Source: Verrucomicrobiota bacterium
GTDB taxonomy: Bacteria > Verrucomicrobiota > Verrucomicrobiia > Opitutales > JABDGR01
Direction: 5' to 3'
DNA length: 42,608 nucleotides
Assembly (NCBI GenBank): GCA_013285985.1
Contig: JABDGR010000006.1
Location: 1 to 42,608, forward strand
The notes under the pieces are model-generated. The model did not search any database. It saw only the letters and a program-made list of their open reading frames with translations, and was not told the DNA's origin. Position 1 is the first letter of the stretch, and each line of letters opens with the position of its first letter. The translations under genes and the position numbers were made by a program. This document shows positions 8,132 to 38,044 of this stretch, piece by piece.

Positions 8132-9802
8132 TCATGGAGCGTAAGTCCCAACTTCCACATATATTTCATTCAGGGCGGAGACCAGGTCAGCCTGGCCATG
8201 CCGAAGATCCACCCGCAGTGCTTCGCGTTCGCCTGGGCCGGCATTAGCCATGTCTTTTCGAATAAGATCGTCTCGTCGGATGATTTTCATGAGGTTGCTC
8301 CACACATTTTGCGCCATCTTGGCCTTGGCCTGTTTGGGCGTAGGATTTAAGAGCGGATCGATTTGCTTGCAAAAGGCTTCAATCTGATCTCGATTCTGGT
8401 CCAAACTCGGCTGTTGCGATGTACCCTGACCGATGGCTTGTTGCGTGGTTCGGTCAAGTTCCAAGGCCGCGGCTAATTGGCCCCGCAGAGCTTCAATTTG
8501 GTAGGCCTGGTCGCTTTGTGGAATGCTGGCATCAACCAAGTTTGCGGGGAGCAGTCTTAAGAACGCCTGGCTTTCAGCCGAAAGTTTGTTTAAATCGTAG
8601 GTATAGGTCTTTTTGTCGGCCAATTGGAATTTCACCGAGTCGGCGTCCCGACCCAGGATGTGCGCTTCCAAGGACTGGCCGGACGCGGAGGTCAAGGTGT
8701 CATCAATCGGATAATCGAGCCGCAATCCAGCGGGGAGCAAAGCCAGGAATTTCTGGCTGTCGAGGGAAAATTCGGTCATGGGCCAATAATATTCGCGCCC
8801 GGTTTCCAGCAGAGTGAATTTCACAATGTTCGAACTGCGGGCCTTAAGCCGCACACGCAGGGATCGTCCCTGGGCATCGCTGAGGTCGTAATCAAACGGC
8901 AGGGTAAACTGCAGGCTCGATGGAAATGAGCGAAAAACCTGCCGGTCGATGATGGAAAAATCGTCCACCGGCCGGTAATAAGTCAGACCATCACTCAGGA
9001 GGATATATTTGATCGTGTTGGCGGAACGGCCTTCGAGGCGGACATTCAGCCTTTTATTGTTATTATCCGTCAGGGTGCATTCAAAGGGAAAAATGAGCGA
9101 GGCATAATTGGGCAGGAGTTGAACCAATTTCTGATCCACATCGGAAAGTTCGTGAATCGGGTAATATAAAATGGTTCCGTCTCGCGAGGACAACTTCACC
9201 AGTTCGGACGAACGCGCCTCGATGCGTTCCGCCAGCACATGGCCGGCCCGGTCGGTCAAAGCCAATTCTACCGGCGTATCCAGGGTCAATTTCGAAGGGA
9301 GCTGCGTCAGGATAGTCTGGTCGCCACTCGAAAATGACCCGAGCGGCACATAATGCGTCGAACGGTCGGACAACAGGGTGTAGCGAACCCAGTCAGTGCT
9401 GCGCCCCTCGACGCGGATCGCCGCCGGCTTGGCATCCATTTCTCGCATAAAACATTCGAAGGGATACTGAAACTCCAGGGCCGGTGAGTTTAGCTGTTTG
9501 ATGAATTCCTGATCCTGGCCCGACAGCGCGGAAATGGCCGCATAGCGGGTGGAGTTGTCCGCCAATAAAGTGTATTTTACCACCTCGTCATTATGCGCCT
9601 CGAGGCGGGCCGGGGTCGCCTGGCCTTGCGCGCTGGTCAGCGTGTATTCCTGGGGCATCCGGCGCTGCCAGATAAAATGGTGCCAAACCCCGCCCGCCAG
9701 GCCCAGACACAGCAGAATCGCGAGCAAAGTCCCCCAGGGCACCCTCGACGCCAAGGATGGCGGAGCAATGGGTTGCGGCCGCAAATTAATTACCGGAATC
9801 AT
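8132..9802 (-). CDS. Membrane-anchored protein of six tandem SHD1-like repeats
   Basis: 556 residues; I recognise no named family for the whole protein. It has a short N-terminus, one membrane helix (about residues 22-44, L-L-A-I-L-L-C-L-G-L-A-G-G-V), then six repeats of roughly 63 residues between about 52 and 430. Each repeat has the same order: strand L-T-D-x-x-G-x-x-L, strand x-x-R-L-E-A-R-S, x-x-V-K-Y-T-L-L, a Tyr-rich strand such as T-H-Y-V-P-L, then L-S-x-x-D-Q-x-F-L-x-x-L-P. This matches the SHD1 (Sla1 homology domain 1) pattern known from bacterial and fungal proteins, best in the last repeat. The C-terminal 125 residues are Gln/Lys-rich helical. The following gene upstream on the same strand is a paralogue, 189 bp away. 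A periplasmic ligand-binding or scaffold role is only a guess. Confidence 0.7.
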   Translation of the reverse strand: MIPVINLRPQPIAPPSLASRVPWGTLLAILLCLGLAGGVWHHFIWQRRMPQEYTLTSAQGQATPARLEAHNDEVVKYTLLADNSTRYAAISALSGQDQEFIKQLNSPALEFQYPFECFMREMDAKPAAIRVEGRSTDWVRYTLLSDRSTHYVPLGSFSSGDQTILTQLPSKLTLDTPVELALTDRAGHVLAERIEARSSELVKLSSRDGTILYYPIHELSDVDQKLVQLLPNYASLIFPFECTLTDNNNKRLNVRLEGRSANTIKYILLSDGLTYYRPVDDFSIIDRQVFRSFPSSLQFTLPFDYDLSDAQGRSLRVRLKARSSNIVKFTLLETGREYYWPMTEFSLDSQKFLALLPAGLRLDYPIDDTLTSASGQSLEAHILGRDADSVKFQLADKKTYTYDLNKLSAESQAFLRLLPANLVDASIPQSDQAYQIEALRGQLAAALELDRTTQQAIGQGTSQQPSLDQNRDQIEAFCKQIDPLLNPTPKQAKAKMAQNVWSNLMKIIRRDDLIRKDMANAGPGEREALRVDLRHGQADLVSALNEIYVEVGTYAP

Positions 9803-9991: not shown

Positions 9992-11272
9992 CTATGGATT
10001 GAGCGCCTGGATTTTATAATTATCTGCCGAGATTTGATGTACGTCCCGGTCCAAGATTGCCTGGTCAATACTTCGGTCGCCCGGCTGGGTGTGGGGATCG
10101 GTGATCTCCGCTTGCAGGAGCAAATCGTTCTTTCTCAATTGGCTGATTTCGTCGCGCAGTTTTTTGACTTCCGGCGATTCGGTTTTCTTCGAATTGTTTG
10201 GGAGAGAGCGCAAAAATTGCTGATTTTCCGCGGAAAGTTGCTCCAACGGATAGGTCGTCACCGTGCCATTCGCCAGACGGAACCTCACGTCGGTATCCGA
10301 ACGCCCGAGAATTTTCACCGGCAACGCGCGTTTTGATTGGTCGGTCAAGGTAAAATCAAATGAGTACGAGGGAAAATTGTTTGACTTCAATGATTTAAAA
10401 ATTTTTTGGTCTTCGTCCGAAAAATCCGTCAGCAAGCGATAATTGGTCGAGCTATCCAGTGGGTCAGTCAGGACGACAAAATCTGAAACCCGGCCGGTCG
10501 CATAAATTTTGACTGGGGCGCCGGCTTTGTCATAGGCGGTGTAGTCAAGCGGCCAGTCCAGATCGTCTCCGGCAGGAAGTGCTTTCGCAAAGCTTTGATC
10601 GGTGGGTGAAAGATCCGCCACGAGATAATACCGGGTGGCATCGTCCGGAGGCGTAGTGAAGGCCACCGTATCCTTGGAGTGGCCCGTAATTTTCACCTGG
10701 AGGCCCGCCTGCGGAGGACCGCTAAACGTGTAGATTATGGGATAACTAAAATCGGTGACAGACATGAGCTGCACCACTGCCTGGTCGGTCTCTGACAACG
10801 AACCCACCGGAAGGTAGTTGGTGCTGTTACTTGCCGGGAGCGTGACTTGCACCCAATCCCGATTGCGGCTTTCCAGGAGAACCGGGATCTTTTTTCCTTC
10901 GGCGTCGGTCAATTCATAGTTGAGCGGAAAGCGAACAGTCAACCCCATCGCCAGGTTTCGGATAAAACCCTGGTCGGCTGTGGACAAACTATCGATGAGC
11001 AAAAAGCTGGGTTTCCCACTCGCGGGATCGGTATATTTAAGCAGCCGGTCATCACGAGCCTCCAGACGTGCCTGCAAAACTTTTCCATTCTGCAAAACGA
11101 GGTCACGCTCCTGCGGCAGCCGGTAGCGCCAGGACTGGTACCCAAACCAGCCCAACACGCCAACCGCGGCGAGAAAAATCACTATTTGCATCCACGGCAG
11201 CGGCGGCTTGGACCGCGACTGCAGAATATTTTCCATCCGCTTTTCGAACGTCTCTGGATTTGGTCCGGACAT
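9992..11272 (-). CDS. Membrane-anchored protein of five tandem SHD1-like repeats
   Basis: 426-residue paralogue of the neighbouring repeat protein. Residues 1-26 are cytoplasmic and basic, 27-45 form one helix (M-Q-I-V-I-F-L-A-A-V-G-V-L), and the helix is followed in both proteins by W-R-x-R-x-P-Q-E-like residues and the first repeat. Five SHD1-like repeats follow to about residue 355; the last, V-R-F-R-L-A-N-G-T-V-T-T-Y-P-L, then L-S-A-E-N-Q-Q-F-L-R-S-L-P, fits the family best. The tail (residues 360-426) contains a predicted coiled coil V-K-K-L-R-D-E-I-S-Q-L-R-K. The middle repeats are divergent, suggesting old duplication. The same strand, spacing and topology suggest an operon with the six-repeat gene. 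Function unknown. Confidence 0.7.
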   Translation of the reverse strand: MSGPNPETFEKRMENILQSRSKPPLPWMQIVIFLAAVGVLGWFGYQSWRYRLPQERDLVLQNGKVLQARLEARDDRLLKYTDPASGKPSFLLIDSLSTADQGFIRNLAMGLTVRFPLNYELTDAEGKKIPVLLESRNRDWVQVTLPASNSTNYLPVGSLSETDQAVVQLMSVTDFSYPIIYTFSGPPQAGLQVKITGHSKDTVAFTTPPDDATRYYLVADLSPTDQSFAKALPAGDDLDWPLDYTAYDKAGAPVKIYATGRVSDFVVLTDPLDSSTNYRLLTDFSDEDQKIFKSLKSNNFPSYSFDFTLTDQSKRALPVKILGRSDTDVRFRLANGTVTTYPLEQLSAENQQFLRSLPNNSKKTESPEVKKLRDEISQLRKNDLLLQAEITDPHTQPGDRSIDQAILDRDVHQISADNYKIQALNP

Positions 11273-11391
11273 AGGGGGTAATGATTGATTGTTGCAACGG
11301 CTTTTCGGTTAATATCCGTTTGGCGAACCCTTTGCATCCGGTATTCCAAACTGCCGGATAAGTGTCAAGCCCAGGCCAACCGGGGCAGACA

Positions 11392-12153
11392 TTACCCGGC
11401 CAAGTCTGCCCGGCCCGCCGCCCATACGTTGAAGGCCAGGGGCTTGCCCACCACCGGCTCAACCCGGACAAAGCCGCCCGCGCTTTCGACCAATGCCAGC
11501 CCGGCCGCAATGTCCCACAATTTGATGGATTCCTCAAAATAAGCATCGACCCGCCCGCCCGCCACATAAGCCAGCGCCAGCGCCGCCGTGCCAATCATCC
11601 GGATTTTTTTGAATTTTTCGACCCGGGCGACAAACCCGCGCACCGCCTCTCCGCCCCGGTCCGTGGTGGAGGGGAACCCCGTGCACAGGACGGCGCGGGG
11701 TATGTCCGGCGCCCAACGGGGTTTGAGCGCGCGACCATTCATGGTTAACCCCAATCCCGTGCCACCCGCATAAAGTTCGTCCCGCCAGAAATCGAACACC
11801 ACGCCCAGGACCGGCCGCCGCCCGCGCCACAACCCAATGCTTACACACGCACCCGGAATACCGCGCAAATAATTATAAGTCCCATCCAGCGGGTCGACCG
11901 CCCAATACGGCTCGTCGTGATCGAGCAGGCCGGCATCGCCGCCGATTTCCTCGCCGATGACTGGCAGTTTTGTGCGCGCCAGGCGTTCGCGGATGAGCGT
12001 TTCGCTGTCCACGTCCGCCTGGAGTTTGATGTCATGGTCGGACTCGGAATTGACGGTGCGGTCGGAGCGTTTGGCCAGGGCCGCACCCGCGGCGCGCGCG
12101 GTGGCCACGGCGAGGGTGAGGAGTTCGTCAGCGGGGATGGAAGGAGCGGCCAC
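11392..12153 (-). CDS. Inositol monophosphatase family protein
   Basis: 253-residue Mg2+-dependent sugar/inositol phosphatase (IMPase fold). Metal and catalytic motifs are intact: V-I-G-E-E-I (Glu68/69), W-A-V-D-P-L-D-G-T-Y-N-Y (Asp87, Asp90 within the family's D-P-L-D-G-T), and K-L-W-D-I-A-A-G (Asp214). Members include SuhB, histidinol-phosphatase HisN and 3'-phosphoadenosine-5'-phosphatase CysQ, and the motifs alone do not separate them. No histidine or sulfur genes are nearby. The ATG at 12153 gives the usual N-terminal helix L-L-T-L-A-V-A-T-A-R-A-A-G. It is divergent from the ATP-grasp gene with a 113-bp gap. Confidence 0.88.
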   Translation of the reverse strand: MAAPSIPADELLTLAVATARAAGAALAKRSDRTVNSESDHDIKLQADVDSETLIRERLARTKLPVIGEEIGGDAGLLDHDEPYWAVDPLDGTYNYLRGIPGACVSIGLWRGRRPVLGVVFDFWRDELYAGGTGLGLTMNGRALKPRWAPDIPRAVLCTGFPSTTDRGGEAVRGFVARVEKFKKIRMIGTAALALAYVAGGRVDAYFEESIKLWDIAAGLALVESAGGFVRVEPVVGKPLAFNVWAAGRADLAG

Positions 12154-12266
12154 GGTAAGGCGGGCATTTTGCCGCTTGCGCCGGGCGGGCGCAAGCTTGG
12201 CGTGGACCGGTCAATCGGCATGAGGCTTGCTCAGCTTGGGCCGGCAACGCTATTTTCGCCCCGCCC

Positions 12267-13706
12267 ATGTTTGATAAATACCAGCCCGAAGACTTCTATG
12301 ATGAGATGTTTGCGGGGCCACCCCCCCGGGGGGTCCGCCCGCATTACCGCAAATTTCTCGACCGCTTCTCGACGATTGACCGCGATGAGTTCGAGCAAAA
12401 GTGCCAGAGCACCGACCTGTCCTTCCTGCGCCAGGGCATCACCTTCACCGTGTATAATGACAACGAAGGCACCGAGCGCATCTTTCCCTTCGACCTGATC
12501 CCCCGCATCATTCCGGCCAGCGATTGGGCACAGCTTGAACGGGGCCTCAAGCAGCGCATCACCGCCCTCAACCTTTTCCTCAAGGACATCTACACCAATC
12601 AGAAAATTCTCGCCGACAAGGTCATCCCCGAGCACTACGTCCTCTCCGCCAAACATTACCGCCCGGAATTTCGTGGCGCCAAAGTCCCGCGCGACATCTA
12701 TATCCACATCTGCGGCACGGACCTCATCCGCGGGCGCGATGGCCAATACCTCGTCCTGGAGGACAATGGCCGCTGCCCCTCCGGTGTTTCCTACATGCTG
12801 GAAAACCGCGCCGCGATGAAGCGCGCTTTCCCCGGTTTCTTTGCCCGCGGCAACATCCGCCCGATTGACCAATACGCCGACGAACTGCTGCAGGTGCTGC
12901 GCTACATTTCCCCCAAGCGCCGGGATCCCACCGTCGCGCTCCTCACACCCGGCGTTTACAACAGCGCGTACTTCGAGCATTGCTTTCTCGCGCGGCAGAT
13001 GGGCGTGGAAATCGTCGAGGGCCGCGACTTGGTCGTGCGTGAGGAGCGCGTGTTCATGCGCACCACCAAGGGCCTCCAGCCCGTGGATGTCATTTATCGG
13101 CGCGTGGACGACGATTTTCTCGACCCGACCGTGTTCCGAAAGGACTCGATGCTCGGCGTGCCCGGCCTCATTTCCGCCTACCGCGCCGGCAACGTGGCGC
13201 TGGCCAACTCGATCGGCACCGGCGTGGCCGACGACAAGGTGATGTATTACTTTGTGCCGCGGATGATAAAATACTACCTCGACCAGGACCCGATCCTGCC
13301 GAACGTCGAAACCTACCTCGCTTCGGAGAAAAAGGATTACGATTACATTTTGGACAACCTGGCCAAGCTCGTGGTGAAGAGCGCGAACGAAGCCGGGGGC
13401 TACGGCATGTTGATGGGGCCGTGGGCCGCGAAGGACGAAATTGAAAAATTCCGCCAGCAAATCAAGGCGAACCCGCGCAACTTCATCGCCCAGCCGCCCA
13501 TTTCCCTTTCGCGCCACCCGACTTATTGCGACGGCAAATTCGAAGGCCGCCACATTGACCTGCGCCCCTACATACTTTACGGCGAAAAAATTGTCATCAT
13601 GCCCGGCGGCCTTACCCGCGTGGCGTTGAAAAAAGGCTCGCTCGTCGTCAACTCCTCGCAAGGCGGCGGCTCGAAAGACACCTGGGTTTTGAGCGGGGAC
13701 GAGTAA
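12267..13706 (+). CDS. Circularly permuted ATP-grasp protein (DUF404/DUF407)
   Basis: 479-residue member of the circularly permuted type 2 ATP-grasp family (PF04174 and relatives), predicted to make a peptide-like amide bond using ATP. Landmarks: the opening [20 protein letters not shown], then [33 protein letters not shown], the metal-site segment [15 protein letters not shown] (about 165-179), and a C-terminal [14 protein letters not shown]. In most genomes it is followed by an alpha-E domain protein (PF04168) and a transglutaminase-like protease; neither is present, so it is a solitary copy. The natural substrate is unknown in the family. Codons 18-22 lie in a C7G6 tract. Confidence 0.88.
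12320..12334. repeat. C7G6 perfect palindrome in the ATP-grasp gene
   Basis: ACCCCCC and GGGGGGT flank one central C, 53 bp after the start codon and encoding P-P-P-R-G. It can form a hairpin and is a likely slippage site in replication, sequencing or translation. The frame continues normally through it. Confidence 0.6.
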
Positions 13707-15717: not shown

Positions 15718-17058
15718 ATGAAACGTCGCACGTTCATTCAGAACACTTTTATCACCGTCGCCGGAGCTTCCCTCCCCAGCCGCATTCTGACCGCCGCTGA
15801 TGCCGCTGCTTCCACGGCTGTCACTCCAGCTCTTCCCACCGCTACCAGCCCCGTGACTCCGACTGCGCTCGAACTCGCCACCAAGTTCCTCTATCAAATC
15901 GGCCGGCGCAACGTTGCCATCCACGACCCGTCCACTATCGTCAAGTGCAAGGACGAATACTGGGTATTCTATACCGGCAACCGCGTCCCGTGCTATCGCT
16001 CCAAAGACCTCGTCAACTGGACGCCCGGCCCGCCCGCTTTGCCCGGCCCGGCGACGTGGTTTACCGATGCCGTGCCTGGGTTTTTCGGCACGAATTGCTG
16101 GGCGCCGGATTGCATGAAGGTCGGCGACCGCTACTTCCTTTACTACGCCATTTCCGCCTTTGGCAAAAACACTTCGGCCATCGGCCTGGCCACCAACCCC
16201 ACGCTCGACCCGGCCGACCCGGACTATCTCTGGACCGACCAGGGCATGGTCATCAAATCCGTCAAAGAGGATAATTTTAACACCATCGACCCCGCCATCG
16301 TGCTCGATTTAGACGGCAAACTCTGGCTGTCGTTTGGCTCGTTCTGGACCGGCATCAAACTCATCGCGCTCGATAAAAAAACGGGCCAGCGCATTCCCGA
16401 CAGCCCGCTGTATTCCATCGCGGCCAATCCCGGCCACGCCACCGCGACCACCGAAGGCCGCCTCGAAGAACCGATCAACAAATCCCAAATCGAAGCTTCG
16501 TACATCTACCCGCACGACAAATATTACTACCTCTTTGTGGATTGGGGCCTGTGCTGCCACGGACTCTCGAGCACTTACAACATCCGCGTGGGCCGCAGCG
16601 AAAAAATCACCGGCCCGTATCTCGACAAGGACGGCAAAGACCTGCTGCACGACGGCGGCACGCTTTTTCTGGGCGATGAAGGCCCGATGATGGACACCTC
16701 CCAATATCCGGCCCCGCGTGGCCGCGGCGGTCGCCCGCCCGCGCAAGTGCACGCTTTCATCGGCCCCGGCCACGCGGGGATTATTTCCGAAGGCGACAAG
16801 TTTTGGTTCAGCTGCCATTATTACGACGGCACCACGCCCAACGGCGCGTCCATTCTCGACGTTCGGCCGCTCACGTGGGACAAAACCGGCTGGCCGGTGG
16901 TCGGCGAGTATCCCGACCCCGCGCCCATGCCCACCGTGCCGATGCCGCAACCCTTTGGCCGCCGCGGTCGAGGGGGGAATTCTGCGCCGACCGCAGCTAC
17001 TACAACACCGGCTCCGGCGATATCGACAAATGCGGCTCCTTCGACTACGGCAAATTAA
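15718..17058 (+). CDS. Tat-exported GH43 arabinanase-like glycoside hydrolase
   Basis: 446-residue five-bladed beta-propeller enzyme of family GH43, most like endo-1,5-alpha-L-arabinanase acting on pectic arabinan. The N-terminus K-R-R-T-F-I-Q-N-T begins a twin-arginine signal ending near A-A-D-A. Catalytic landmarks: I-H-D-P-S-T-I (base Asp near residue 67), F-N-T-I-D-P-A-I-V (pKa Asp near 184), W-L-S-F-G-S-F-W-T-G, and E-A-S-Y-I-Y (acid Glu near 260), then G-P-G-H-A-G. An Arg/Gly-rich insertion P-R-G-R-G-G-R-P-P sits around residues 331-340, and the tail (412-446) is Arg/Gly then Ala/Thr/Pro-rich. Exo-arabinofuranosidase or xylosidase activity cannot be excluded. It lies 218 bp upstream of the GH28 gene. 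Confidence 0.88.
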   Translation: MKRRTFIQNTFITVAGASLPSRILTAADAAASTAVTPALPTATSPVTPTALELATKFLYQIGRRNVAIHDPSTIVKCKDEYWVFYTGNRVPCYRSKDLVNWTPGPPALPGPATWFTDAVPGFFGTNCWAPDCMKVGDRYFLYYAISAFGKNTSAIGLATNPTLDPADPDYLWTDQGMVIKSVKEDNFNTIDPAIVLDLDGKLWLSFGSFWTGIKLIALDKKTGQRIPDSPLYSIAANPGHATATTEGRLEEPINKSQIEASYIYPHDKYYYLFVDWGLCCHGLSSTYNIRVGRSEKITGPYLDKDGKDLLHDGGTLFLGDEGPMMDTSQYPAPRGRGGRPPAQVHAFIGPGHAGIISEGDKFWFSCHYYDGTTPNGASILDVRPLTWDKTGWPVVGEYPDPAPMPTVPMPQPFGRRGRGGNSAPTAATTTPAPAISTNAAPSTTAN

Positions 17059-17246: not shown

Positions 17247-17280
17247 TCATGGTCTTAAAAGATAGGGCTCAAGACCATGA
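17247..17280 (+). promoter_or_regulatory. Hairpin capturing the GH28 start codon
   Basis: Perfect 10-bp inverted repeat TCATGGTCTT (17247-17256) and AAGACCATGA (17271-17280) around a 14-nt loop. The right arm contains the ATG at 17277-17279 and the loop carries AGGG, the nearest Shine-Dalgarno-like sequence. In mRNA this would hide the first start codon. As DNA it could be an operator just downstream of a promoter. A second in-frame ATG at 17283 lies outside the stem. Confidence 0.5.
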
Positions 17281-20200
17281 CGATGGCAAGAATACCTCTG
17301 GTTTTCATGCTGGTTTTTGCGCTGCCGCATTTTGCGGCGGCGGCACCGATTGTTGTCGTCACTGACACGTTTGCGGATGGCGAACATGCCACCTTAAATC
17401 CACCTTCGTCGGCGCAATGGGCGGATTCGAATGGCAGCGACACCTTGTCGGATGGCGCGGTGACGTCGGGTCAAGGCTCATTTACCATAACTCCCACAAC
17501 GGGGAATTCTTCTACCATCACAGCCTATTACACCACTTCGGGCCAACCGCTGACGTTGGGCGTTGGCGACACGATGGTAGTCAAGCTTCGGTTATCGTTC
17601 ACTGGCCTCAATAGTAATACTTCAGTCGCGCAGATGCGCGGAGGCATTTTTGACTCAAACGGCAATCGCACGTCTTTTGTGAACGATTCCGGATATGGCT
17701 TTTTCTTCAGTTGGATGACTTCCGGAGGTTCGAGCAATCCATTCGCCATCAACCGGCGCACGACGCTTACCAGTACCAACCTTTTTTCTGCCAGTACGGA
17801 TTTCACACAGATTGGAAGCACCGGAGGCGGAACCTATCAGAATCTCGCCAACAGCACGGACTACACGTTTACCTACACCGTTTTTCGTCAGTCAAGCACC
17901 TCGACGGTGCTTACTAATTCACTCAGTGGCGGAAGCATTTCCGGCAATTACAGCAATTCCGCCACTGAAAGCAGTTCAACCCCAAACACCGCTTTCGATT
18001 TTCTGGCCTTTCGGTGGGCGAAAATGGCCTTTGCCACAACGATCACCGTCAAAAGCCTGGAAGTAGATTACACCCCCGCGATCCCGGTGATTTCCGCACA
18101 GCCGACATTTCCTTCCGGCGGTACGTCATTGACATTGGCCACTGGGAGCCAGACCAACATCACGATGACGGCCACGGGCAACGGAACGACCTACCAATGG
18201 TTTCTCAATGGCACGACCCAGCTGGCCGACGGCACCTTGCCCGATGGCACGGTCATCTCTGGCTCGGCCACAGCCACCCTCTCGCTCAGCAATTTGCAAA
18301 CAGGTGAAAGCGGCAATTACACAGTCGTCGTCACTAACGCCGGCGGCAATGTCACGAGCAACGCGGTCACGCTCACCGTGACCACCGGCACGCCCGATCC
18401 CCCGCCCGTCATCCAAAACCAGCCGGCCAGCGAGATTGTGGGCAGCGGTGACAACGCAACCTTTAGCGTGAATGCCACCGGCTCGAATCTTACCTACCAG
18501 TGGTATCTGAACACCACCACCGCCCTCAGTGGGCAGACCGGCACGACGCTGACCCTCACCGGCGTGCAGGCGAGCAATGTCGGCAACTATACAGTCGTCG
18601 TCACCAACGACGGCGGCAACATCACGAGCAACATTGCCACGTTGTCGGTGCTCAACCTGCCCCCGACGCAAACGGCCCTGGCCGGGACCAACACCTATTT
18701 TGTCGTGCAAGCTGCCGGCACGGGGCTGAGTTATGTCTGGATGAAGGGGAACCAAGTCGTTGGCACTAACTCGAACATCCTCCAACTCAGCAACGTCCAG
18801 GCCTCGGACGCGGGAAGTTACACTATCACCGTCACCGATTCGTTCAACGCAACTGCCACCAGCAACGCCGCGGTGCTCACGGTGCAGCAGCCTGCCGCCA
18901 CGCTGCCGCCGCAGCCAGTCATCCCGCAAACCATTTTTAACGTGACCACCTTTGGCGCAAAGGGCGACGGGACATCGGACAACGCCAGCGCCATCCAAAG
19001 CGCCATTGCCGCCGCCAATAGCGCCGGCGGAGGCATCGTGGAAATCCCCGCGGCCACCCAGCCGTATATGTGCGGCCCCATCACTATCGGGAGCAATACC
19101 AACCTCCAGGTTGACTACGGCGCGACGTTGCAGGCTTTGCCTTTTGGGACATATCCGGACAGCAGCAACAATCCCTCGAATTTGGTCTTGGTCAGCTCGA
19201 GCTCCACCAATGTTGAAATCAGCGGCCAGGGTACCATTGACGGCAACGGCGCGGCGTGGTGGGCGGCCTTCAATAGCAATGGCAGCCTCAACCGTCCGCG
19301 TCTCATTGAAATTAACAGTAACACCAACAAACTGCTGATTACGGGCGTGAACCTGACCAACCCAGCGATGTTCCATATCGCCTTTAGCAACACCAGTAAC
19401 GTCACGCTTTACGGCATTACCATCAACACTTCCTCGACGTCGCCCAACACGGACGGCATCGACCCCGCCGGCAGCCACTACCTTATTCAAGGCTGCAATA
19501 TCTCCACCGGTGACGACAACATCGCGGTCAAGCCGCAGAGCACGCTTTGCACCGACCTCACCATCGCCAACTGCACCTTCGGCACCGGCCACGGGCTTTC
19601 CATCGGCGGGCAGACCAATACCGGCCTCGACGGCATGACCGTGATGAATTGCACCTTTAACGGCACGCTAGTTGGAATCAAAATGAAGGCGGACGCCACC
19701 CAGGGTGGCCCGGTGGCAAATGTCACGTATTCGAACCTGACGATGACGAACGTGCCCAGCCCGATTGTGTTTTACAGTTACTATAACCAGAACGGCACAC
19801 CGGGTTCTACCGGCGTCTCGAATGCGGTCACGACGACCACGGCCAGCAATGACAACAGCAACCCGCCGAATTCACTGAGCTCCTCGACCCTGCCCTCGTG
19901 GAAGAATATCACCATCAGCAACCTCACGGCGACTAACGCGAGCGCCTACAGCATCATCTGGGGCTTGCCGCTGGCCAACAATCTTATCTCGAATATCACG
20001 CTCAACAACGTCGTCATCTCTGGTGGCGCGGGCTTTAAAATTTATGACGCCAGCAATGTCCAGATCACCGGCAACACCAGCGTCGGCAGCTACACGACGT
20101 ACAACTCCCTCTCTATCAGCAGCCAGCCGCAAAGCCTGACCGCCAACGCCGGCGCCAACACCACTTTCACCGCCAGCACCATCGGCGCCAGCGGCGTAAA

Positions 20201-20858
20201 TAACACCGCCCCAACCTATCGCTGGAATTTAAATGGCACTTCGCTCAATGACGGGACACTGCCCGATGGCACGGTTGTCTCGGGCTCAGCCACCACCACG
20301 CTTCAGCTTAGCAACATCCAGGTCGCGGAAGCAGGTTCCTACACGATGACGGCTTCCAACTCCCTCGACGGATACAATACGGGCAACAACACACTCGTGC
20401 CCGGCAATCTCACCGTTTCAGCCACGACCAGCGCCGCGACGCTCACCGTCATTCCGCCGTATGCTGTTTGGGCAAACAGCTTCGGCCTCAATATCGCCAC
20501 CACCGGCGCGCAGAGTGCCAACCCCTCCGGCGACGGTATTCCGAACCTCATTAAATATGCCCTTGGAGGCAACCCACTCTTCGCCGACCGAATCATCCTG
20601 CCCACGACGACTTTCACGACTATCAACAACACCCTCGCGCTTGTTTTCCAATTCAACCGCAACACCGCAGCCGCAACCGCCTTGACTTCCGAGACCGTCG
20701 AATCCTCACCCGACATGCTCAATTGGACGACGGCCGTGGATGGGCAAAGCGGCGTGAGCATTACGATTACGCCGGTGGACTCGAGCACCCAGCAAGTGAC
20801 CGTGACGATCCCGTTCGTCGGCAACATTATATTCGCCCGTCTGCGGGTCACGCCCTAG
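17277..20858 (+). CDS. Multidomain exported GH28 polygalacturonase with Ig-like modules
   Basis: 1193 residues. A signal peptide (1-22, ending F-A-A-A-A) is followed by a beta-rich domain (25-265) and three Ig-like modules (about 270-370, 378-455, 461-540). The catalytic GH28 beta-helix spans about 555-940, then a fourth Ig module (945-1060) and a C-terminal module containing D-G-I-P-N-L-I-K-Y-A-L-G-G-N-P (about 1085), typical of large Verrucomicrobiota exoproteins. GH28 signatures are present: N-T-D-G-I-D (725-730), G-D-D-N-I-A-V-K (746-753), G-H-G-L-S-I-G-G (770-777) and G-I-K-M-K, the usual R-I-K-T reading M-K. It should hydrolyse polygalacturonan or rhamnogalacturonan outside the cell. 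ATG 17277 is used here; ATG 17283 is equally possible because of the hairpin. Its neighbours are all pectin-related. Confidence 0.88.
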   Translation: MTMARIPLVFMLVFALPHFAAAAPIVVVTDTFADGEHATLNPPSSAQWADSNGSDTLSDGAVTSGQGSFTITPTTGNSSTITAYYTTSGQPLTLGVGDTMVVKLRLSFTGLNSNTSVAQMRGGIFDSNGNRTSFVNDSGYGFFFSWMTSGGSSNPFAINRRTTLTSTNLFSASTDFTQIGSTGGGTYQNLANSTDYTFTYTVFRQSSTSTVLTNSLSGGSISGNYSNSATESSSTPNTAFDFLAFRWAKMAFATTITVKSLEVDYTPAIPVISAQPTFPSGGTSLTLATGSQTNITMTATGNGTTYQWFLNGTTQLADGTLPDGTVISGSATATLSLSNLQTGESGNYTVVVTNAGGNVTSNAVTLTVTTGTPDPPPVIQNQPASEIVGSGDNATFSVNATGSNLTYQWYLNTTTALSGQTGTTLTLTGVQASNVGNYTVVVTNDGGNITSNIATLSVLNLPPTQTALAGTNTYFVVQAAGTGLSYVWMKGNQVVGTNSNILQLSNVQASDAGSYTITVTDSFNATATSNAAVLTVQQPAATLPPQPVIPQTIFNVTTFGAKGDGTSDNASAIQSAIAAANSAGGGIVEIPAATQPYMCGPITIGSNTNLQVDYGATLQALPFGTYPDSSNNPSNLVLVSSSSTNVEISGQGTIDGNGAAWWAAFNSNGSLNRPRLIEINSNTNKLLITGVNLTNPAMFHIAFSNTSNVTLYGITINTSSTSPNTDGIDPAGSHYLIQGCNISTGDDNIAVKPQSTLCTDLTIANCTFGTGHGLSIGGQTNTGLDGMTVMNCTFNGTLVGIKMKADATQGGPVANVTYSNLTMTNVPSPIVFYSYYNQNGTPGSTGVSNAVTTTTASNDNSNPPNSLSSSTLPSWKNITISNLTATNASAYSIIWGLPLANNLISNITLNNVVISGGAGFKIYDASNVQITGNTSVGSYTTYNSLSISSQPQSLTANAGANTTFTASTIGASGVNNTAPTYRWNLNGTSLNDGTLPDGTVVSGSATTTLQLSNIQVAEAGSYTMTASNSLDGYNTGNNTLVPGNLTVSATTSAATLTVIPPYAVWANSFGLNIATTGAQSANPSGDGIPNLIKYALGGNPLFADRIILPTTTFTTINNTLALVFQFNRNTAAATALTSETVESSPDMLNWTTAVDGQSGVSITITPVDSSTQQVTVTIPFVGNIIFARLRVTP

Positions 20859-20978: not shown

Positions 20979-20983
20979 AGGAG
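20979..20983 (+). promoter_or_regulatory. Shine-Dalgarno AGGAG deciding the lipoprotein start
   Basis: AGGAG ends 8 nt before the ATG at 20992, one of the few good ribosome-binding sites in this window. It supports that ATG over the GTG at 20950. Confidence 0.75.
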
Positions 20984-20991
20984 TCAGTATT

Positions 20992-22872
20992 ATGAAAATT
21001 ATTCGCGCCGTGTTCGTTCCTTCAATTTGTCTGGCCGCGCTCTTGGCGGCGTGCACCAGCGTCGATACCGGAGGTGAAAAAGCACCAGCCAAACCCAGGC
21101 CGGATGCCACGACCATCACGCTGGACACGCCCATGGCCGCGCCCGAATGGGCCACCATGGAGCGCCAGTTTATTAGCGAAATGTCGGCGTTGTGCATGGA
21201 GTTTTACCACAAGTTTTATGACGACCAGGGCAACCTGCAGGCGGTGCTGCGCTGGGGCGCGGACGACGGCCCGGACGACGCCTTTGAAAACTTCACCGGG
21301 TGGCCGGAGTTGCACGCCATGGGCGGGCCGGACGAACTCTTGCACACCTACCTCAAGTCCAACGACGCGATGATCGTACAGTATACCAACGCCAGGACCA
21401 CGGTGGCGCCGGTGCCGAGTGGCGGCATGTTCTACAAGGAGTTCGAGTGCCAGGTGGATGGGATGCACCTTGGAGAATGGTCGAAAATACACAATCGCGA
21501 GGGCCTCTCGGTGCCGACCGACCCGAAACTGATTGAGCGCGCCCGGCGCTACGCGGGCTTTTACATGGACGAAGACCCCGAAGCGAAAAACTACGATCCG
21601 AAGCTCAAGATCATCCGCTCCGTGCTCAATGGCAGCCGCGGCCCGATGCTGCGCAAGGCCAATCCGGTGGACTGGGTCGGCGACCCCGTAGACATTTCCA
21701 AATTCCCCGCCGTGCACGGCGAAGCAAATTACGATGACATGCTCGCGCACTACAAGGAATACGGCGATGTCGCGGGCGACTCGTTCCTCAACCTCTGCGT
21801 CACCAACATCGTCACCACCGCGTATATGCTCACCCACGACGAGAAATACAAAAAGTGGGTGCTGGATTATATGGACGCCTGGCTCGACCGTATGAAACAA
21901 AATAACTGGGTCATCGCCAGCTATGTCGCGCTTGATGGAAAAATCGGCGGGCCCGAGGGCAAATGGTGGAACAACGCCTACGGCTGGGGCTTCAGCCCGA
22001 TCAGCACGGCGCAGGGATCGAGTTATGGCCGGCCGGCCGACCGCAACCGCATCCCACGCGCGCTGGTTGGGTTCATCAACGCTTTGTGGCTCTCCCGGGG
22101 AGATCAAAAATATGTGGATGCCTGGCGCAACCAGATCAACTCCGTCAATTCCAACGCCGTCACCCTCAACGGAGTCACCCAATATCCGACCATGTATGGC
22201 GCGAATGGCTGGTACAGTTTCAGGCCGCAGCCGTGGAGCGTGGGCGCGCTGGAAGTCTGGTATTGGTCGATGAAGCCCGAAGATTTGGCCCGCGTCTCCC
22301 AAAACGACTGGGTCGCCTACCTGCAGGGGCAATATCCGGAATATCCGCTGGACGCACTGCGACGCGATTACCAAACCATGCAACGTCATGCACAAAATTT
22401 TCGCGCCGACCAAACGACCCCACAGACGCGCCTGGCGGACAACCAACTCGACAACGATCCGGCGAATGGCCCCATCGATGCGTTGATGCAATTGATGATG
22501 GGTTGCGTGCCCCGGCCCGACGGCGGGCGCGATGGCGGGCTAATCAATGCGCGGCTGCGTTACTTCAACCCCACCCTCAAACGGGCCGGCCTGCCGGAAG
22601 ATGTGGGGGCACTGGTTTCCGGGCTGACGGACACCACCACCACGGTGACCTTCGCCAATCTGAATAAAGCCCAGCCACGGACATTCGTGGTGCAAGGCGG
22701 GGCTTATGCAGAGCACTGGATTGAGTCGGTGACGTGGAATGGGAAAACCGTGCCGGTGAACTCAACGAGCTTCACCGTCACCCTCGCGCCGGGCGCGGGC
22801 GACACCCTGACCCTCAAGATGAAACGCTACGCGGGAGACCCGACAGAGCTTTTCCCGTGGGATCAGAAATGA
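20992..22872 (+). CDS. Unrecognised exported lipoprotein of the pectin locus
   Basis: 626 residues from the ATG at 20992, which has a good Shine-Dalgarno and gives a lipoprotein signal V-P-S-I-C-L-A-A-L-L-A-A-C-T-S with lipid Cys near residue 21. I do not recognise the family. Residues 45-500 are mainly helical with many aromatic and acidic residues (W-P-E-L-H-A-M-G-G-P-D-E-L, Y-M-D-A-W-L-D-R-M, G-K-W-W-N-N-A-Y-G-W-G-F), resembling the alpha/alpha-barrel folds of polysaccharide lyases and several glycoside hydrolases. The last 100 residues are beta-rich and look like a C-terminal sandwich domain. Placed between GH28 and rhamnogalacturonan acetylesterase genes, it is probably a carbohydrate-active enzyme on pectin side chains, which is inference. 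It converges with the esterase gene with 23 bp between stops. Confidence 0.7.
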   Translation: MKIIRAVFVPSICLAALLAACTSVDTGGEKAPAKPRPDATTITLDTPMAAPEWATMERQFISEMSALCMEFYHKFYDDQGNLQAVLRWGADDGPDDAFENFTGWPELHAMGGPDELLHTYLKSNDAMIVQYTNARTTVAPVPSGGMFYKEFECQVDGMHLGEWSKIHNREGLSVPTDPKLIERARRYAGFYMDEDPEAKNYDPKLKIIRSVLNGSRGPMLRKANPVDWVGDPVDISKFPAVHGEANYDDMLAHYKEYGDVAGDSFLNLCVTNIVTTAYMLTHDEKYKKWVLDYMDAWLDRMKQNNWVIASYVALDGKIGGPEGKWWNNAYGWGFSPISTAQGSSYGRPADRNRIPRALVGFINALWLSRGDQKYVDAWRNQINSVNSNAVTLNGVTQYPTMYGANGWYSFRPQPWSVGALEVWYWSMKPEDLARVSQNDWVAYLQGQYPEYPLDALRRDYQTMQRHAQNFRADQTTPQTRLADNQLDNDPANGPIDALMQLMMGCVPRPDGGRDGGLINARLRYFNPTLKRAGLPEDVGALVSGLTDTTTTVTFANLNKAQPRTFVVQGGAYAEHWIESVTWNGKTVPVNSTSFTVTLAPGAGDTLTLKMKRYAGDPTELFPWDQK

Positions 22873-22895: not shown

Positions 22896-23813
22896 CTACG
22901 GTTTCGCGGGTGCGGCGGAGGCTGAGGCCGCCGCGGGCGCATCCGGGAGAAGGTCTTGGGCAAGCGGCATATCCTTCAATTGCCTGAGGCCTTCAATGAC
23001 CGAATGGGCATTAAGTATGGCGCCGGCTTTGGTCGGGTGCTGGGTGTCGGCGAAATAATCGTAAGTGACGTCCTGGCCGAGCGCATCGTATTTGTTGGCG
23101 GTGATGGTGTTCAAATCAAGGAAGGGCGCGCCACTGGCCTTGGCCGCATCGGCGGCCCACTGCGCGTAACCGTCGAAGCCGCGCTTCACTTTGCCATCGA
23201 CCCATTGGTTGCGGGGGACGGGCGAGCAAACAATCAAGGTCACGCCCTTGGCCTTGGCATCATTAACGTATTGGCGCAAATACCAGCCGTAGGTGTGAAC
23301 GGTTTCCTTGGTGCCCGGCTTCACCGGTGAATCGATTTCCTTGGCATTGTCGCCGCTGCCCTGGACAGTGGTGCGGTCGGGATAATTCGCCGAGTTGGCG
23401 GCGTCGTTATGGCCGAACATCATGATGGCGTAGTCGCCGGGCTGCATCCGCGCCAACACCTTGGCCCAGAGGCCTTCTTCGATGTAGCCGCGGCTGCTGC
23501 GGCCGCCCGCGCCTTCATTATAGACATGGATTTTTTTTGCGTCAAAAAGGGGAATGATTTCATAGCCCATGCCGTACGGGCCGAAGTTGCCGGGCGGCGT
23601 GCCGGTCTTCATGATGGAATCGCCGACGAGAAAAAGCGCCGGGTGCAGCGTTTCGGGAATTGCCGCAGCAGTTGAGGTGGCTGACGATGCGGCGGGCGCG
23701 GGAGTGGTGGCACTCGACGCGCTGGCCGCAGGGGCCGCGGCCTGGAGAGAGCCGTGGCCCAGAAAGAGAAGCGCACTTAAGAATGCGGCCGGGGTATTGA
23801 AGACATTTTTCAT
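22896..23813 (-). CDS. Rhamnogalacturonan acetylesterase-like SGNH hydrolase
   Basis: 305-residue secreted esterase that should remove acetyl groups from rhamnogalacturonan I. From the preferred ATG at 23813 there is a signal peptide (1-25, L-L-F-L-G-H-G-S-L-Q-A), then an Ala/Ser/Thr/Pro linker (26-52). SGNH residues: G-D-S-I (Ser66), E-G-A-G-G-R-S-S-R (Gly in block II), G-H-N-D (Asn136) and D-T-Q-H-P (Asp256, His259). The ATG at 23843 would add ten residues and is less signal-like. The tail D-A-P-A-A-A-S-A-S-A-A-P-A-K-P is low complexity. It is 68 bp downstream of the epimerase gene on the same strand and probably co-transcribed with it. Confidence 0.9.
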   Translation of the reverse strand: MKNVFNTPAAFLSALLFLGHGSLQAAAPAASASSATTPAPAASSATSTAAAIPETLHPALFLVGDSIMKTGTPPGNFGPYGMGYEIIPLFDAKKIHVYNEGAGGRSSRGYIEEGLWAKVLARMQPGDYAIMMFGHNDAANSANYPDRTTVQGSGDNAKEIDSPVKPGTKETVHTYGWYLRQYVNDAKAKGVTLIVCSPVPRNQWVDGKVKRGFDGYAQWAADAAKASGAPFLDLNTITANKYDALGQDVTYDYFADTQHPTKAGAILNAHSVIEGLRQLKDMPLAQDLLPDAPAAASASAAPAKP

Positions 23814-23881
23814 GGTTGGGGGATTGGGGAATAGTGCGGGCATTCTGCAAAAAGCGCCGGCCGAGGCAATGGCGGAATGAA

Positions 23882-25090
23882 TTACTTCGCGGAGGCGGGT
23901 GGCGCTTTGTCCGAGCTCGCCGTGAAGCGATATTCCGTTTTGCTCGTGAACGTCTCACCTGGGCGGAGGATAATAGAGGGGAAATTGTCGTGGTGGACGG
24001 CGTCGGGAAAATGCTGAGTTTCAAGGACGATGAAGCCGGCACCGCGACCACCCCGGCCCGGGCGGCCAGCCGATGCATTCGCGCCCAACTGGCTCGTGTA
24101 AAGCTGCAGCCCCGGCTGGTTGGTCCATACTTCCATGACACGGCCGGTGGTCGGCTCAGTGACGCGCGCGGCAAAAGTCAGCGACTGGCCGGCATCCTTT
24201 TCGCGGTTCAAAACAAAACTGTGGTCGTAATGGCGACCCGGAAGGTCCGCGGCGCGCGCGCCGAGGGCGGCGGGCTGCGTGAAATCCAACGGGGTGTCTT
24301 TCACGCTCACGATTTCGCCAGTGGGGATAAGAGTCGCGTCGGCGACGGTGTAGCGATCGGCGTTGATCAGGAGTTCGTAGGCATTACTGTCGCCCGTGCC
24401 GCCGGCGAGGTTAAAGAAAGCGTGGTTGGTCAGATTGACGGGTGTGGGTTGGTCCGTCGTGGCGGAATATTCCAGGCGCAGGATGTTTTGGTCGGTCAGG
24501 GTGTAGGTGACGCTGGTTGTGAGAGTGCCGGGGTAGCCTTCCTCGCCGTCTTTGCTGACGTAAGTAAGTTTCACAGCCTGGCCGGCGTCCTTGGCCAGCG
24601 TGGGAATTTCGGCTTTCCAGATGACTTTGCTGAAGCCGATTCTTCCCCCGTGGAGGGTATTGACGCCATCGTTGGCGTTCAGGGTGTAATCGTGCCCATC
24701 GAGGGTGAAGCGCGCACCGGCGATGCGGTTGGCGACCCGGCCCATGACGGAGGCCGACAGCGGAAAACGCAGATAATTTGCGAGCGAATCCGTGGACAGG
24801 ACTACGTTGGCAAGTTTCCCGGCGCGGTCGGGCATGTCCAGCCCGACGATGGTCGCGCCGTAGGTGATGATTTTGGCGACGGCGCCGTTTTTGTTCGTCA
24901 GCGTGTAAAGCTCGACGTCCGTGCCATCGGGCAGCTGGCCGAAAACGGATTTTTGGGTTCCAGCGACGATGGCGGGCTTGGGTGTTTCAGCGGCTGTAGT
25001 TGCCGCAGGCTCCGCGGCGGGCGCGTTCAGGAGAAACAGGCCACTCGCAGCGAAGAAACAAAATATTTTAGCGCAAAGGCGAGCAGGCAT
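23882..25090 (-). CDS. galM: Exported aldose 1-epimerase (galactose mutarotase)
   Basis: 402-residue mutarotase interconverting alpha and beta anomers of galactose-like sugars. A signal peptide (about 1-25, F-F-A-A-S-G-L-F-L-L-N-A-P-A-A) and Ala/Thr linker place it in the periplasm, unlike cytosolic GalM. Family residues: G-R-V-A-N-R-I-A-G-A-R-F, N-L-T-N-H-A-F-F-N-L (catalytic His), H-Y-D-H-S-F (Asp), and the base Glu in V-L-E-T-Q-H-F-P-D-A. The loop before that Glu is Arg/Gly-rich (R-P-G-R-G-G-R-G-A-G). Periplasmic placement next to the acetylesterase suggests it handles sugars from pectin side chains before uptake. Four 10-bp repeats lie 115-154 bp upstream. Confidence 0.92.
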   Translation of the reverse strand: MPARLCAKIFCFFAASGLFLLNAPAAEPAATTAAETPKPAIVAGTQKSVFGQLPDGTDVELYTLTNKNGAVAKIITYGATIVGLDMPDRAGKLANVVLSTDSLANYLRFPLSASVMGRVANRIAGARFTLDGHDYTLNANDGVNTLHGGRIGFSKVIWKAEIPTLAKDAGQAVKLTYVSKDGEEGYPGTLTTSVTYTLTDQNILRLEYSATTDQPTPVNLTNHAFFNLAGGTGDSNAYELLINADRYTVADATLIPTGEIVSVKDTPLDFTQPAALGARAADLPGRHYDHSFVLNREKDAGQSLTFAARVTEPTTGRVMEVWTNQPGLQLYTSQLGANASAGRPGRGGRGAGFIVLETQHFPDAVHHDNFPSIILRPGETFTSKTEYRFTASSDKAPPASAK

Positions 25091-33330: not shown

Positions 33331-35112
33331 ATGAGAACCCTACCCCGAAAAATCCAGCTGGCGGCCTGGGCGCTGGTTTTTTCGACCAAACTCGCCGCGC
33401 AGCCGGTATCCACGGCCGGCGCCGCCACCGTTCCCAGCCGCGACGCCAGTAATTACATTCTCACCCCGCCGGCGCCGCACACCCCACGCATCAATGGGCC
33501 GAGCATCTATGGGGAACGCCCGGGCCGCCCGTTCCTTTACTCCATCCCGGCCACGGGCGACCGGCCAATGACTTTTTCCGCCGACGGGCTGCCCAACGGG
33601 CTGCAACTTAATCGCGACACCGGCCAGATAACGGGCGTCGCGGCCGGGGAAGGAAACTACACAGCCAAACTGACCGCGGAAAACGCCCTCGGCAAAGCCA
33701 CCCGCACCTTCCGCATTGTCATTGGAGATAAAATCTCCCTGACGCCGGCGATGGGCTGGAACAGCTGGAATTCCTGGGCAACCCATGTAGATCAGGAAAA
33801 AGTCCTCCACGCCGCCAAGGCGCTGGTGGACAAAGGCCTCGTGAACCATGGCTGGACCTATGTGAACATCGACGACACCTGGCAGGGCAACCGCACCGAC
33901 GATGACCATGCGCTGCAAGCAAATGAAAAATTTCCCAACATGAAGGGGCTGTGCGATACCTTGCATGAGATGGGACTCAAGGCCGGAATTTATTCCACCC
34001 CCTGGATAACCTCCTACGCGAGCTATCCGGGTGGCTCGAGCGAGACCGCCGATGGCGTCTGGGACAAGGCCACCATGGGCAATGGGGCACACCACCGCTT
34101 TGGCAGCGTTTCCTTTGATATTGTCGACGCGAAACAATGGGCGGCGTGGGGCTTTGACTACCTCAAATACGATTGGAACCCGAACGACGTCGAGCACGTC
34201 GAATCCATGAGCAACGCCCTGCGCGGAAGCGGGCGCGACTTTATCTTCAGCCTCTCGAACGCCGCGCCACTCAAAAATGCCGAGGACTGGGCGCGCCTGG
34301 CCAATAGCTGGCGAACCACTGGCGACATCACCGACACCTGGAGCCGTGTCGGTGGGCTCGGCTTCCTACAGGACAACTGGGCGCCGTACGCCGCCCCCGG
34401 CCATTGGAACGACCCGGACATGCTCGTCGTCGGCGTTGTCAGCGTCGGCTCGGCGCTGCATCCGACACGGCTGACCCCGGACGAGCAATACACCCACCTC
34501 AGCATGTGGTGCCTGCTCTCCGCACCGCTGCTCATCGGTTGCGACATGGACAAGCTCGACGATTTCACGCTCAACTTGCTGACCAACGATGAAGTGCTGG
34601 CGGTGGACCAGGATGCTCTCGGCATCTCGGCCCGCGAAGTGTCCGGCCCGGTTTTTCAGGTGCCGCCCGCCCCACCCCGCGGACCCGGTGGTCGTGGCGC
34701 CCCAGCAACCCCCGCAGCGCAGCCCGCTGACGCGCCGCTGACACAGCAGGAAGCCAACCTCGTGGACAACGCGCTGAAAAAGCTGCTGGTGGACGATCCC
34801 GACAGCAAAGGCATCCTCGACAAATACCCGAATTACAACCTGCTGACGCGCAACCAGGGCGGCAACAACCGGGGCGGCAATGGCCTCGTGTTTGCCAAAC
34901 CGCTTGAAGACGGCTCGCTGGCGGTGGGCTTGTTCAATGTCGGACCCGGTCCGGAGAAAGTCACCGCCAATTGGAAAGACTTGGGAGTCGACGGCAAGCG
35001 GGCGGTGCGCGATTTGTGGCGCCAGCAGGACCTTGGCACCTATGAGAACCAGTTTTCGGCAACGGTTCCATCGCATGGCGTCGTGCTCGTTCGGATCAAG
35101 CCCGCGCCGTAA
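33331..35112 (+). CDS. GH27 family exported alpha-galactosidase-like enzyme
   Basis: 593 residues. A signal peptide (about 1-23, L-A-A-W-A-L-V-F-S-T-K-L-A-A-Q) leads to an Ig-like putative He_PIG domain (60-135) and the GH27 barrel from M-G-W-N-S-W (140-145). The likely nucleophile is Asp281 in D-Y-L-K-Y-D-W, the acid/base Asp332 in W-R-T-T-G-D-I, and W-N-D-P-D-M-L is also intact. GH27 includes alpha-galactosidases and beta-L-arabinopyranosidases, so the terminal sugar removed is uncertain. Residues 444-515 are an unusual Pro/Arg/Gly-rich insertion (P-P-R-G-P-G-G-R-G-A-P, then N-Q-G-G-N-N-R-G-G-N-G) with a helical stretch between, set in the C-terminal beta domain. It is transcribed rightward; gpsA lies divergently 114 bp away. 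Confidence 0.9.
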   Translation: MRTLPRKIQLAAWALVFSTKLAAQPVSTAGAATVPSRDASNYILTPPAPHTPRINGPSIYGERPGRPFLYSIPATGDRPMTFSADGLPNGLQLNRDTGQITGVAAGEGNYTAKLTAENALGKATRTFRIVIGDKISLTPAMGWNSWNSWATHVDQEKVLHAAKALVDKGLVNHGWTYVNIDDTWQGNRTDDDHALQANEKFPNMKGLCDTLHEMGLKAGIYSTPWITSYASYPGGSSETADGVWDKATMGNGAHHRFGSVSFDIVDAKQWAAWGFDYLKYDWNPNDVEHVESMSNALRGSGRDFIFSLSNAAPLKNAEDWARLANSWRTTGDITDTWSRVGGLGFLQDNWAPYAAPGHWNDPDMLVVGVVSVGSALHPTRLTPDEQYTHLSMWCLLSAPLLIGCDMDKLDDFTLNLLTNDEVLAVDQDALGISAREVSGPVFQVPPAPPRGPGGRGAPATPAAQPADAPLTQQEANLVDNALKKLLVDDPDSKGILDKYPNYNLLTRNQGGNNRGGNGLVFAKPLEDGSLAVGLFNVGPGPEKVTANWKDLGVDGKRAVRDLWRQQDLGTYENQFSATVPSHGVVLVRIKPAP

Positions 35113-38038: not shown

Positions 38039-38044
38039 GCCGCC

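Follow-up and report, generated by a model that had tools for sequence, protein, structure and literature searches.

An unnamed lipoprotein family with a predicted (alpha/alpha)6-barrel fold, encoded in a verrucomicrobial pectin-type locus, and its candidate role in processing uronate oligosaccharides

The lipoprotein gene and its surroundings

The window analysed here, a stretch of 42,608 nucleotides on a contig of a Verrucomicrobiota bacterium, contained a lipoprotein gene together with glycosidase, esterase and epimerase genes (Table 1). A sequence-only reading had described a 626-residue lipoprotein with a good ribosome site and a signal, and this description was accurate: the open reading frame was uninterrupted, an AGGAG site directly preceded the start codon (CAGGAGTCAGTATTATG), and a LAAC lipobox was present in the translated N-terminus, MKIIRAVFVPSICLAALLAAC. 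Since relatives were 54–63% identical over nearly the full length, the coding status of positions 20992–22872 was beyond doubt. The gene was also located, as had been described, between GH28 and acetylesterase genes. The GH28 gene was upstream on the same strand, with 133 bases between its stop and the lipoprotein start, and the GDSL esterase gene was downstream on the opposite strand.

Table 1. Coordinates, strand and assignment of features in the window.
Feature	Position	Strand	Remarks
GH43 glycosidase	15718..17058	+	PF04616 (E = 9.8e-37); upstream of the lipoprotein gene
GH28 polygalacturonase-like protein with several Ig domains	17277..20858	+	PF00295 (E = 1.2e-47)
Ribosome-binding site AGGAG	20979..20983	+	Directly 5' of ATG 20992; from the sequence
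Lipoprotein gene	20992..22872	+	626 aa, member of the unnamed family; ORF without internal stops
Lipoprotein signal peptide	20992..21054	+	LAA-C end, Cys21; inferred from the lipobox consensus
Helical barrel domain	21145..22500	+	Residues ~52–503; AlphaFold2 model and conservation
C-terminal beta domain	22555..22824	+	Residues ~522–611; AlphaFold2 model and conservation
GDSL esterase (possible pectin acetylesterase)	22896..23843	-	PF13472 (E = 2.5e-15); downstream of the lipoprotein gene
Aldose 1-epimerase	23882..25090	-	PF01263 (E = 7.1e-82)
GH27-type alpha-galactosidase	33331..35112	+	PF16499/PF17801

The wider window encoded another GDSL protein, which also carried a galactose-binding domain (Pfam), and it is reasonable to regard the window as a pectin-type locus. 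Within the GH28 gene product (17277–20858, plus strand), a single protein of 1193 amino acids, the GH28 domain was embedded among several immunoglobulin-like domains. At some distance, the window contained a class II aldolase fused to a short-chain dehydrogenase (3777–5969, minus strand) and a series of genes for aldo-keto reductase, zinc alcohol dehydrogenase and amidohydrolase (36087–38875, plus strand). These genes resemble those for the breakdown of methylpentoses (rhamnose/fucose), which would fit the use of rhamnogalacturonan. Two neighbouring minus-strand ORFs (8132–9802 and 9992–11272) were similar to each other and matched no Pfam family.

Family assignment, predicted fold and invariant residues

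The window protein matched no Pfam model at E ≤ 10 and no NCBIfam family (best E = 0.12), and no PDB sequence was matched significantly (best E = 0.13). Profiles built from 10, 33 and 35 relatives retrieved nothing significant from the PDB. When 33 relatives were scanned singly against Pfam, none exceeded the cut-off and no convincing family emerged; the sole telling weak match was that of one of the 33 to the GH127 model (E = 0.057). No match to the family was found in phage records, nothing significant was retrieved from a viral structure library, and no description of the family was found in the literature. Every annotated relative was named 'hypothetical protein'. Set apart by comparison with Pfam, NCBIfam and the PDB, the window protein belongs to a real, never-named family. 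The earlier failure to recognise a family motif was borne out by the lack of Pfam, NCBIfam and PDB sequence matches, and no known family, and hence no non-carbohydrate family, was matched confidently.

Membership in specific families was likewise rejected. These were GH127 (PF07944; below the Pfam cut-off, hhalign 2.2% and 0.2%), GH88/GH105 (PF07470; no Pfam match, hhalign 1.4%), DUF2264 (PF10022; no Pfam match, hhalign 0.25% and 0.12%), which we take to be the former GH154 family, and AGE/YihS (PF07221; hhalign 0.8%).

A structure model was computed with AlphaFold2 from 33 sequences (pLDDT 88, pTM 0.88) and used in place of an earlier, mediocre one based on 10 close relatives (pLDDT 72). Helix pairs spanned residues 52–503 and a beta domain spanned residues 522–611, the same layout of helical body and beta C-terminal domain that had been read from the sequence. 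The Foldseek comparison that had been proposed as a check returned 34 PDB chains (E ≤ 1e-3), every one of which was an (alpha/alpha)6 sugar enzyme. The neighbours were GH76, cellobiose 2-epimerase, YihS, mannose isomerase and GH127/146; none was close, with TM-scores to solved folds of about 0.5 or less. The predicted helix hairpins and these neighbours agree with the suspected likeness to alpha/alpha barrels and support the (alpha/alpha)6-barrel sugar-enzyme fold class at superfamily level, with weak TM-scores. Given the low TM-scores, the reaction cannot be read from the fold alone. The same search would probably have brought up any CAZy family for which a structure has been solved. The common fold class and the one relative resembling GH127 could also point to a divergent form of a known (alpha/alpha)6 hydrolase (GH127/146, GH88/105 or GH76) that escapes sequence searches, but the profile–profile probabilities of 0.2–2% against GH127 and 1.4% against GH88, together with the absence of any member over the Pfam cut-off, make this explanation very improbable.

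Across 35 sequences from Bacteria and Archaea, 32 columns were invariant. In the barrel, the residues conserved in all 35 included W53, R58, D95, D96, D156, H159, E162, N200, D263, N267, W325, Y330, W332 and W407; in the beta domain, they included R523, N556, E574 and H575. D95/D96, D156–E162 and D263/N267 were located at the N-termini of helices 94–101, 157–170 and 265–281, respectively, which are alternate helices of the barrel. In (alpha/alpha)6 barrels, this is where the active site is found. Scarcely any weight can be given to a non-catalytic, glycan-binding or structural lipoprotein: such a role would suit the lipid anchor and the richness in aromatic residues, but not the cytoplasmic members described below, nor the polar residues at helix ends, whose invariance in both Bacteria and Archaea is what an active site would lead one to expect.

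The window protein retained all of the listed invariant barrel and beta-domain residues. Alone among the 35 sequences, it carried Gly157 and Trp163, whereas the others had Trp157 (33 of 35) and Gly163 (27 of 35). These exchanges alter an otherwise conserved D-W-x-H-x-G-E-G motif and perhaps reflect a moved aromatic residue and a changed specificity.

Distribution and genomic context of the family

Relatives with 26–63% identity occurred in Verrucomicrobiota, Acidobacteriota, Latescibacterota, Alphaproteobacteria, Actinomycetota and haloarchaea. One genome scan yielded ten loci at 46–63% identity, in Verrucomicrobiota, Acidobacteriota and Latescibacterota. In profile searches, 4 of the 388 Verrucomicrobiota genomes and 12 of the 223 genomes belonging to the same order encoded the family. 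A single Opitutales genome of 2.6 Mb encoded eight copies, among them a tandem pair of family genes with equal scores (locus L048, 8084–11967). Plasmid records contained members from Asticcacaulis and Sphingobium (44–45% identity) and, at 26–28% identity, from twelve haloarchaea, two Streptomyces and one Nonomuraea.

In a family tree, midpoint-rooted for drawing only, two supported halves were resolved. The half with the window protein comprised Opitutae, Acidobacteria, Latescibacterota and Alphaproteobacteria; the second comprised haloarchaea, actinobacteria and other Opitutales copies, with the haloarchaeal clade grouping with an Opitutales paralogue. Members of the first half commonly had signal sequences, and some of those in the second half had them too. 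The haloarchaeal and several Opitutales copies look cytoplasmic, because their sequences start directly at the domain. Two copies are probably decayed, judging from their sequences: that of Natrinema SYSU A 869 (L110, 10001–11865), which was unannotated and aligned in two pieces, and that of locus L020, which had an in-frame TAG.

On the haloarchaeal plasmids, an annotated pectate lyase or GH28 gene lay within 10 kb of the family gene at 7 of the 12 loci. In Halostagnicola, the family gene was 27 bases downstream of a pectate lyase gene; in Halomontanus, two pectate lyase genes and a GH28 gene lay a short way downstream of it. At the other five loci, sugar-acid genes were nearby: uxaC with MR_MLE- and DHDPS-family genes, a mannonate dehydratase gene, GH4 with a lactonase gene, or MR_MLE alone or with DHDPS. 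A tblastn search with the Halostagnicola pectate lyase identified 15 haloarchaeal plasmid records, of which 12 carried the family, these being all 12 family plasmids. The hypergeometric p for this co-occurrence was about 1e-20 against archaeal plasmid records with orc1/cdc6 (N = 409; about 400 in the collection) and 4e-13 against a smaller comparable set (N = 100); both values ignore shared ancestry, plasmids of related archaea being non-independent samples. The two genes were also nearer to each other than under random placement (Fisher combined p 3e-8). Of about 60 control plasmids, chosen for the ordinary pentose gene gfo6, only 9 had the pectate lyase gene. Shared ancestry is ignored in these two comparisons as well. 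One large survey recorded no growth on pectin for haloarchaea that have annotated pectate lyases (PMC9726719), and the label 'pectate lyase' may therefore be wrong in these organisms. In a Pfam scan, several annotated haloarchaeal pectate lyases had no Pfam pectate-lyase domain, while one pectate-lyase neighbour was a clear PF06917 match.

Of the 12 haloarchaeal family plasmids, 8 carried GH88/105 genes, as did both alphaproteobacterial family plasmids, and PL22 genes were likewise often found together with the family. As both so often share its plasmids, the idea that the family simply stands in for GH88/105 or PL22 was not supported. The presence of GH88/105 would also be consistent with an oligosaccharide uronate dehydratase, which, like the former GH154 enzymes and P29_PDnc, would take water off a terminal uronate and leave a 4,5-unsaturated residue for GH105/GH88. 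Such enzymes have recently been found among 'hydrolases' or hypothetical proteins (PMC12269599, PMC8511951). We nevertheless consider a dehydratase rather unlikely, as the family had no profile similarity to DUF2264 proteins (hhalign probability 0.1–0.3%) and 4 of the 12 haloarchaeal family plasmids lacked GH88/105, although a chromosomal copy is possible. That the former GH154 enzymes, once classed as hydrolases, have now been proposed to be dehydratases (PMC12269599) is a reason for caution over naming the window protein a glycosidase.

In Asticcacaulis, the gene order was cupin, kdgD, MFS transporter, family gene, TonB receptor and dgoD, with the family gene abutting the MFS transporter gene. 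In Sphingobium, a TonB receptor gene and DHDPS- and FAA-hydrolase-type genes were near the family gene. Several Opitutales shared a run of genes for a TonB receptor, the family protein, optionally a BNR propeller, TctC/B, TctA, an MR_MLE dehydratase and an RraA aldolase. At five of these loci (L045, L052, L055, L056 and L061) the TonB-dependent receptor was large and a BNR/Vps10 propeller was encoded in most; the enolase-superfamily dehydratase and the RraA-type aldolase were present in the longer loci. From its gene content, this run looks like a complete uptake and catabolic route for some sugar acid. PL10-like lyase and sulfatase genes were adjacent to two Opitutales copies (L049 and L050). 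At L049, the protein directly beside the family member (11082–12422) was tested and matched PF09492 (PL10 pectic acid lyase); its homologue at L050 (11009–12379) was split into two ORFs. Taken together, the gene contents suggest sugar-acid uptake and breakdown as the common thread of the family contexts elsewhere.

Among the top 25 Pfam families listed for the flanks of the closest relatives (L002–L011 and L044), which were often short, no conserved pectin cluster was found; these flanks included one GntP permease gene, one RraA gene and one feruloyl/acetyl esterase-like gene. The expectation that the family would co-occur with pectin genes in other genomes thus held in part: strongly in haloarchaea, and also in Asticcacaulis and two marine Opitutales, but not in these nearest relatives. 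Conserved genomic linkage to pectin/uronate genes was a feature of the haloarchaeal members and was not seen in the listed flanks of the nearest bacterial ones.

The cytoplasmic location of many members, beside monomer-catabolism genes, and the presence of cellobiose 2-epimerase, YihS and mannose isomerase among the better Foldseek matches would be compatible with a sugar or sugar-acid epimerase or isomerase related to the AGE/YihS superfamily and acting on monomers. However, export signals, which are unusual for a monomer isomerase, were found in many members including the window protein, the additional beta domain with its invariant E-H is absent from AGE enzymes, and no profile similarity to PF07221 was detected (hhalign probability 0.8%). 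An epimerase or isomerase is quite unlikely on these grounds.

Proposed function and comparison with known systems

The suggestion that the lipoprotein represents an unrecognised carbohydrate-active family gained support from the fold prediction, the lack of a known-family match and the co-occurrence with pectin/uronate genes, with its function at the level of a candidate. We consider it likely that the window protein represents a new enzyme family: lipid-anchored after export and built as an (alpha/alpha)6 barrel, it is predicted to act on oligosaccharides that contain uronic acids, with pectic oligosaccharides the most likely substrates. We lean, by a smaller degree of confidence, towards regarding it as a candidate founding member of a new bacterial and archaeal CAZyme family that processes galacturonate-rich oligosaccharides with an active-site arrangement of its own. 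This putative arrangement would consist of D-D, D-x-x-H-x-x-E and D-x-x-x-N in the barrel and E-H in the beta domain. Counter to a pectin-specific reading, the sulfatase, Gfo/Idh and RraA genes near distant paralogues would also suit other acidic glycans.

Starting from the observed sequence family, predicted fold, invariant residues, export signal and gene context, we infer the substrate class, an exo action and the catalytic roles as follows. GH28- and GH43-type enzymes would first shorten the polymer, and the lipoprotein would bind the resulting oligosaccharide among the aromatic residues that line the mouth of its barrel. The terminal uronate would be acted on by the invariant D95/D96, D156/E162 and D263 together with H159, and E574–H575 of the beta domain would close the site. 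Our first guess is that the terminal uronate is removed by hydrolysis or elimination, with dehydration and epimerisation as the rivals discussed above. The freed sugar acid would then be imported and degraded by dehydratases and aldolases. Exported forms would be active in the periplasm and supply the acid transporters, and the cytoplasmic members of haloarchaea and actinobacteria would perform the same action after import of the oligosaccharide.

This proposal gives a concrete, testable function to a family that soil bacteria, marine bacteria and haloarchaea have in common. Should the protein prove to act on uronate oligosaccharides, it would be the founder of a CAZy family, help to explain uronate processing by haloarchaeal megaplasmids and improve the annotation of Verrucomicrobiota, including the one genome with eight copies.

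The best Foldseek E-values were those of GH76 alpha-1,6-mannanases (2.5e-5) and AGE/YihS epimerases (8e-5), both of which differed from the window protein in lacking a beta domain and in their low similarity to it (TM-scores of 0.27–0.52, 9–13% identity). The invariant D95–D96 of the family might correspond to the adjacent pair of catalytic Asp residues of GH76 (PF03663). The GH127/GH146 beta-L-arabinofuranosidases have, like the window protein, an (alpha/alpha)6 barrel followed by beta domains and a similar length, and were matched by Foldseek; they differed by a TM-score of about 0.3, the low profile probability given above and the lack of a Pfam match. The GH88/GH105 unsaturated uronyl hydrolases share the (alpha/alpha)6 barrel and the uronate/pectin context with the family, and their catalytic Asp residues lie at helix N-termini; unlike the family, they have no beta domain, and their invariant motifs are different. 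The former GH154 glucuronate dehydratases (DUF2264; BcGDH) operate, as proposed for the family, in uronate oligosaccharide pathways, but had no profile similarity to it. The ulvan oligosaccharide dehydratase P29_PDnc (PMC8511951) resembles the family as a protein of unknown family in a uronate glycan pathway. It is set apart by its reported residues: those said to matter (e.g., D248 and K303) cluster within about 60 residues (PMC8511951), whereas the invariant residues of the family span several helices and include no Lys.
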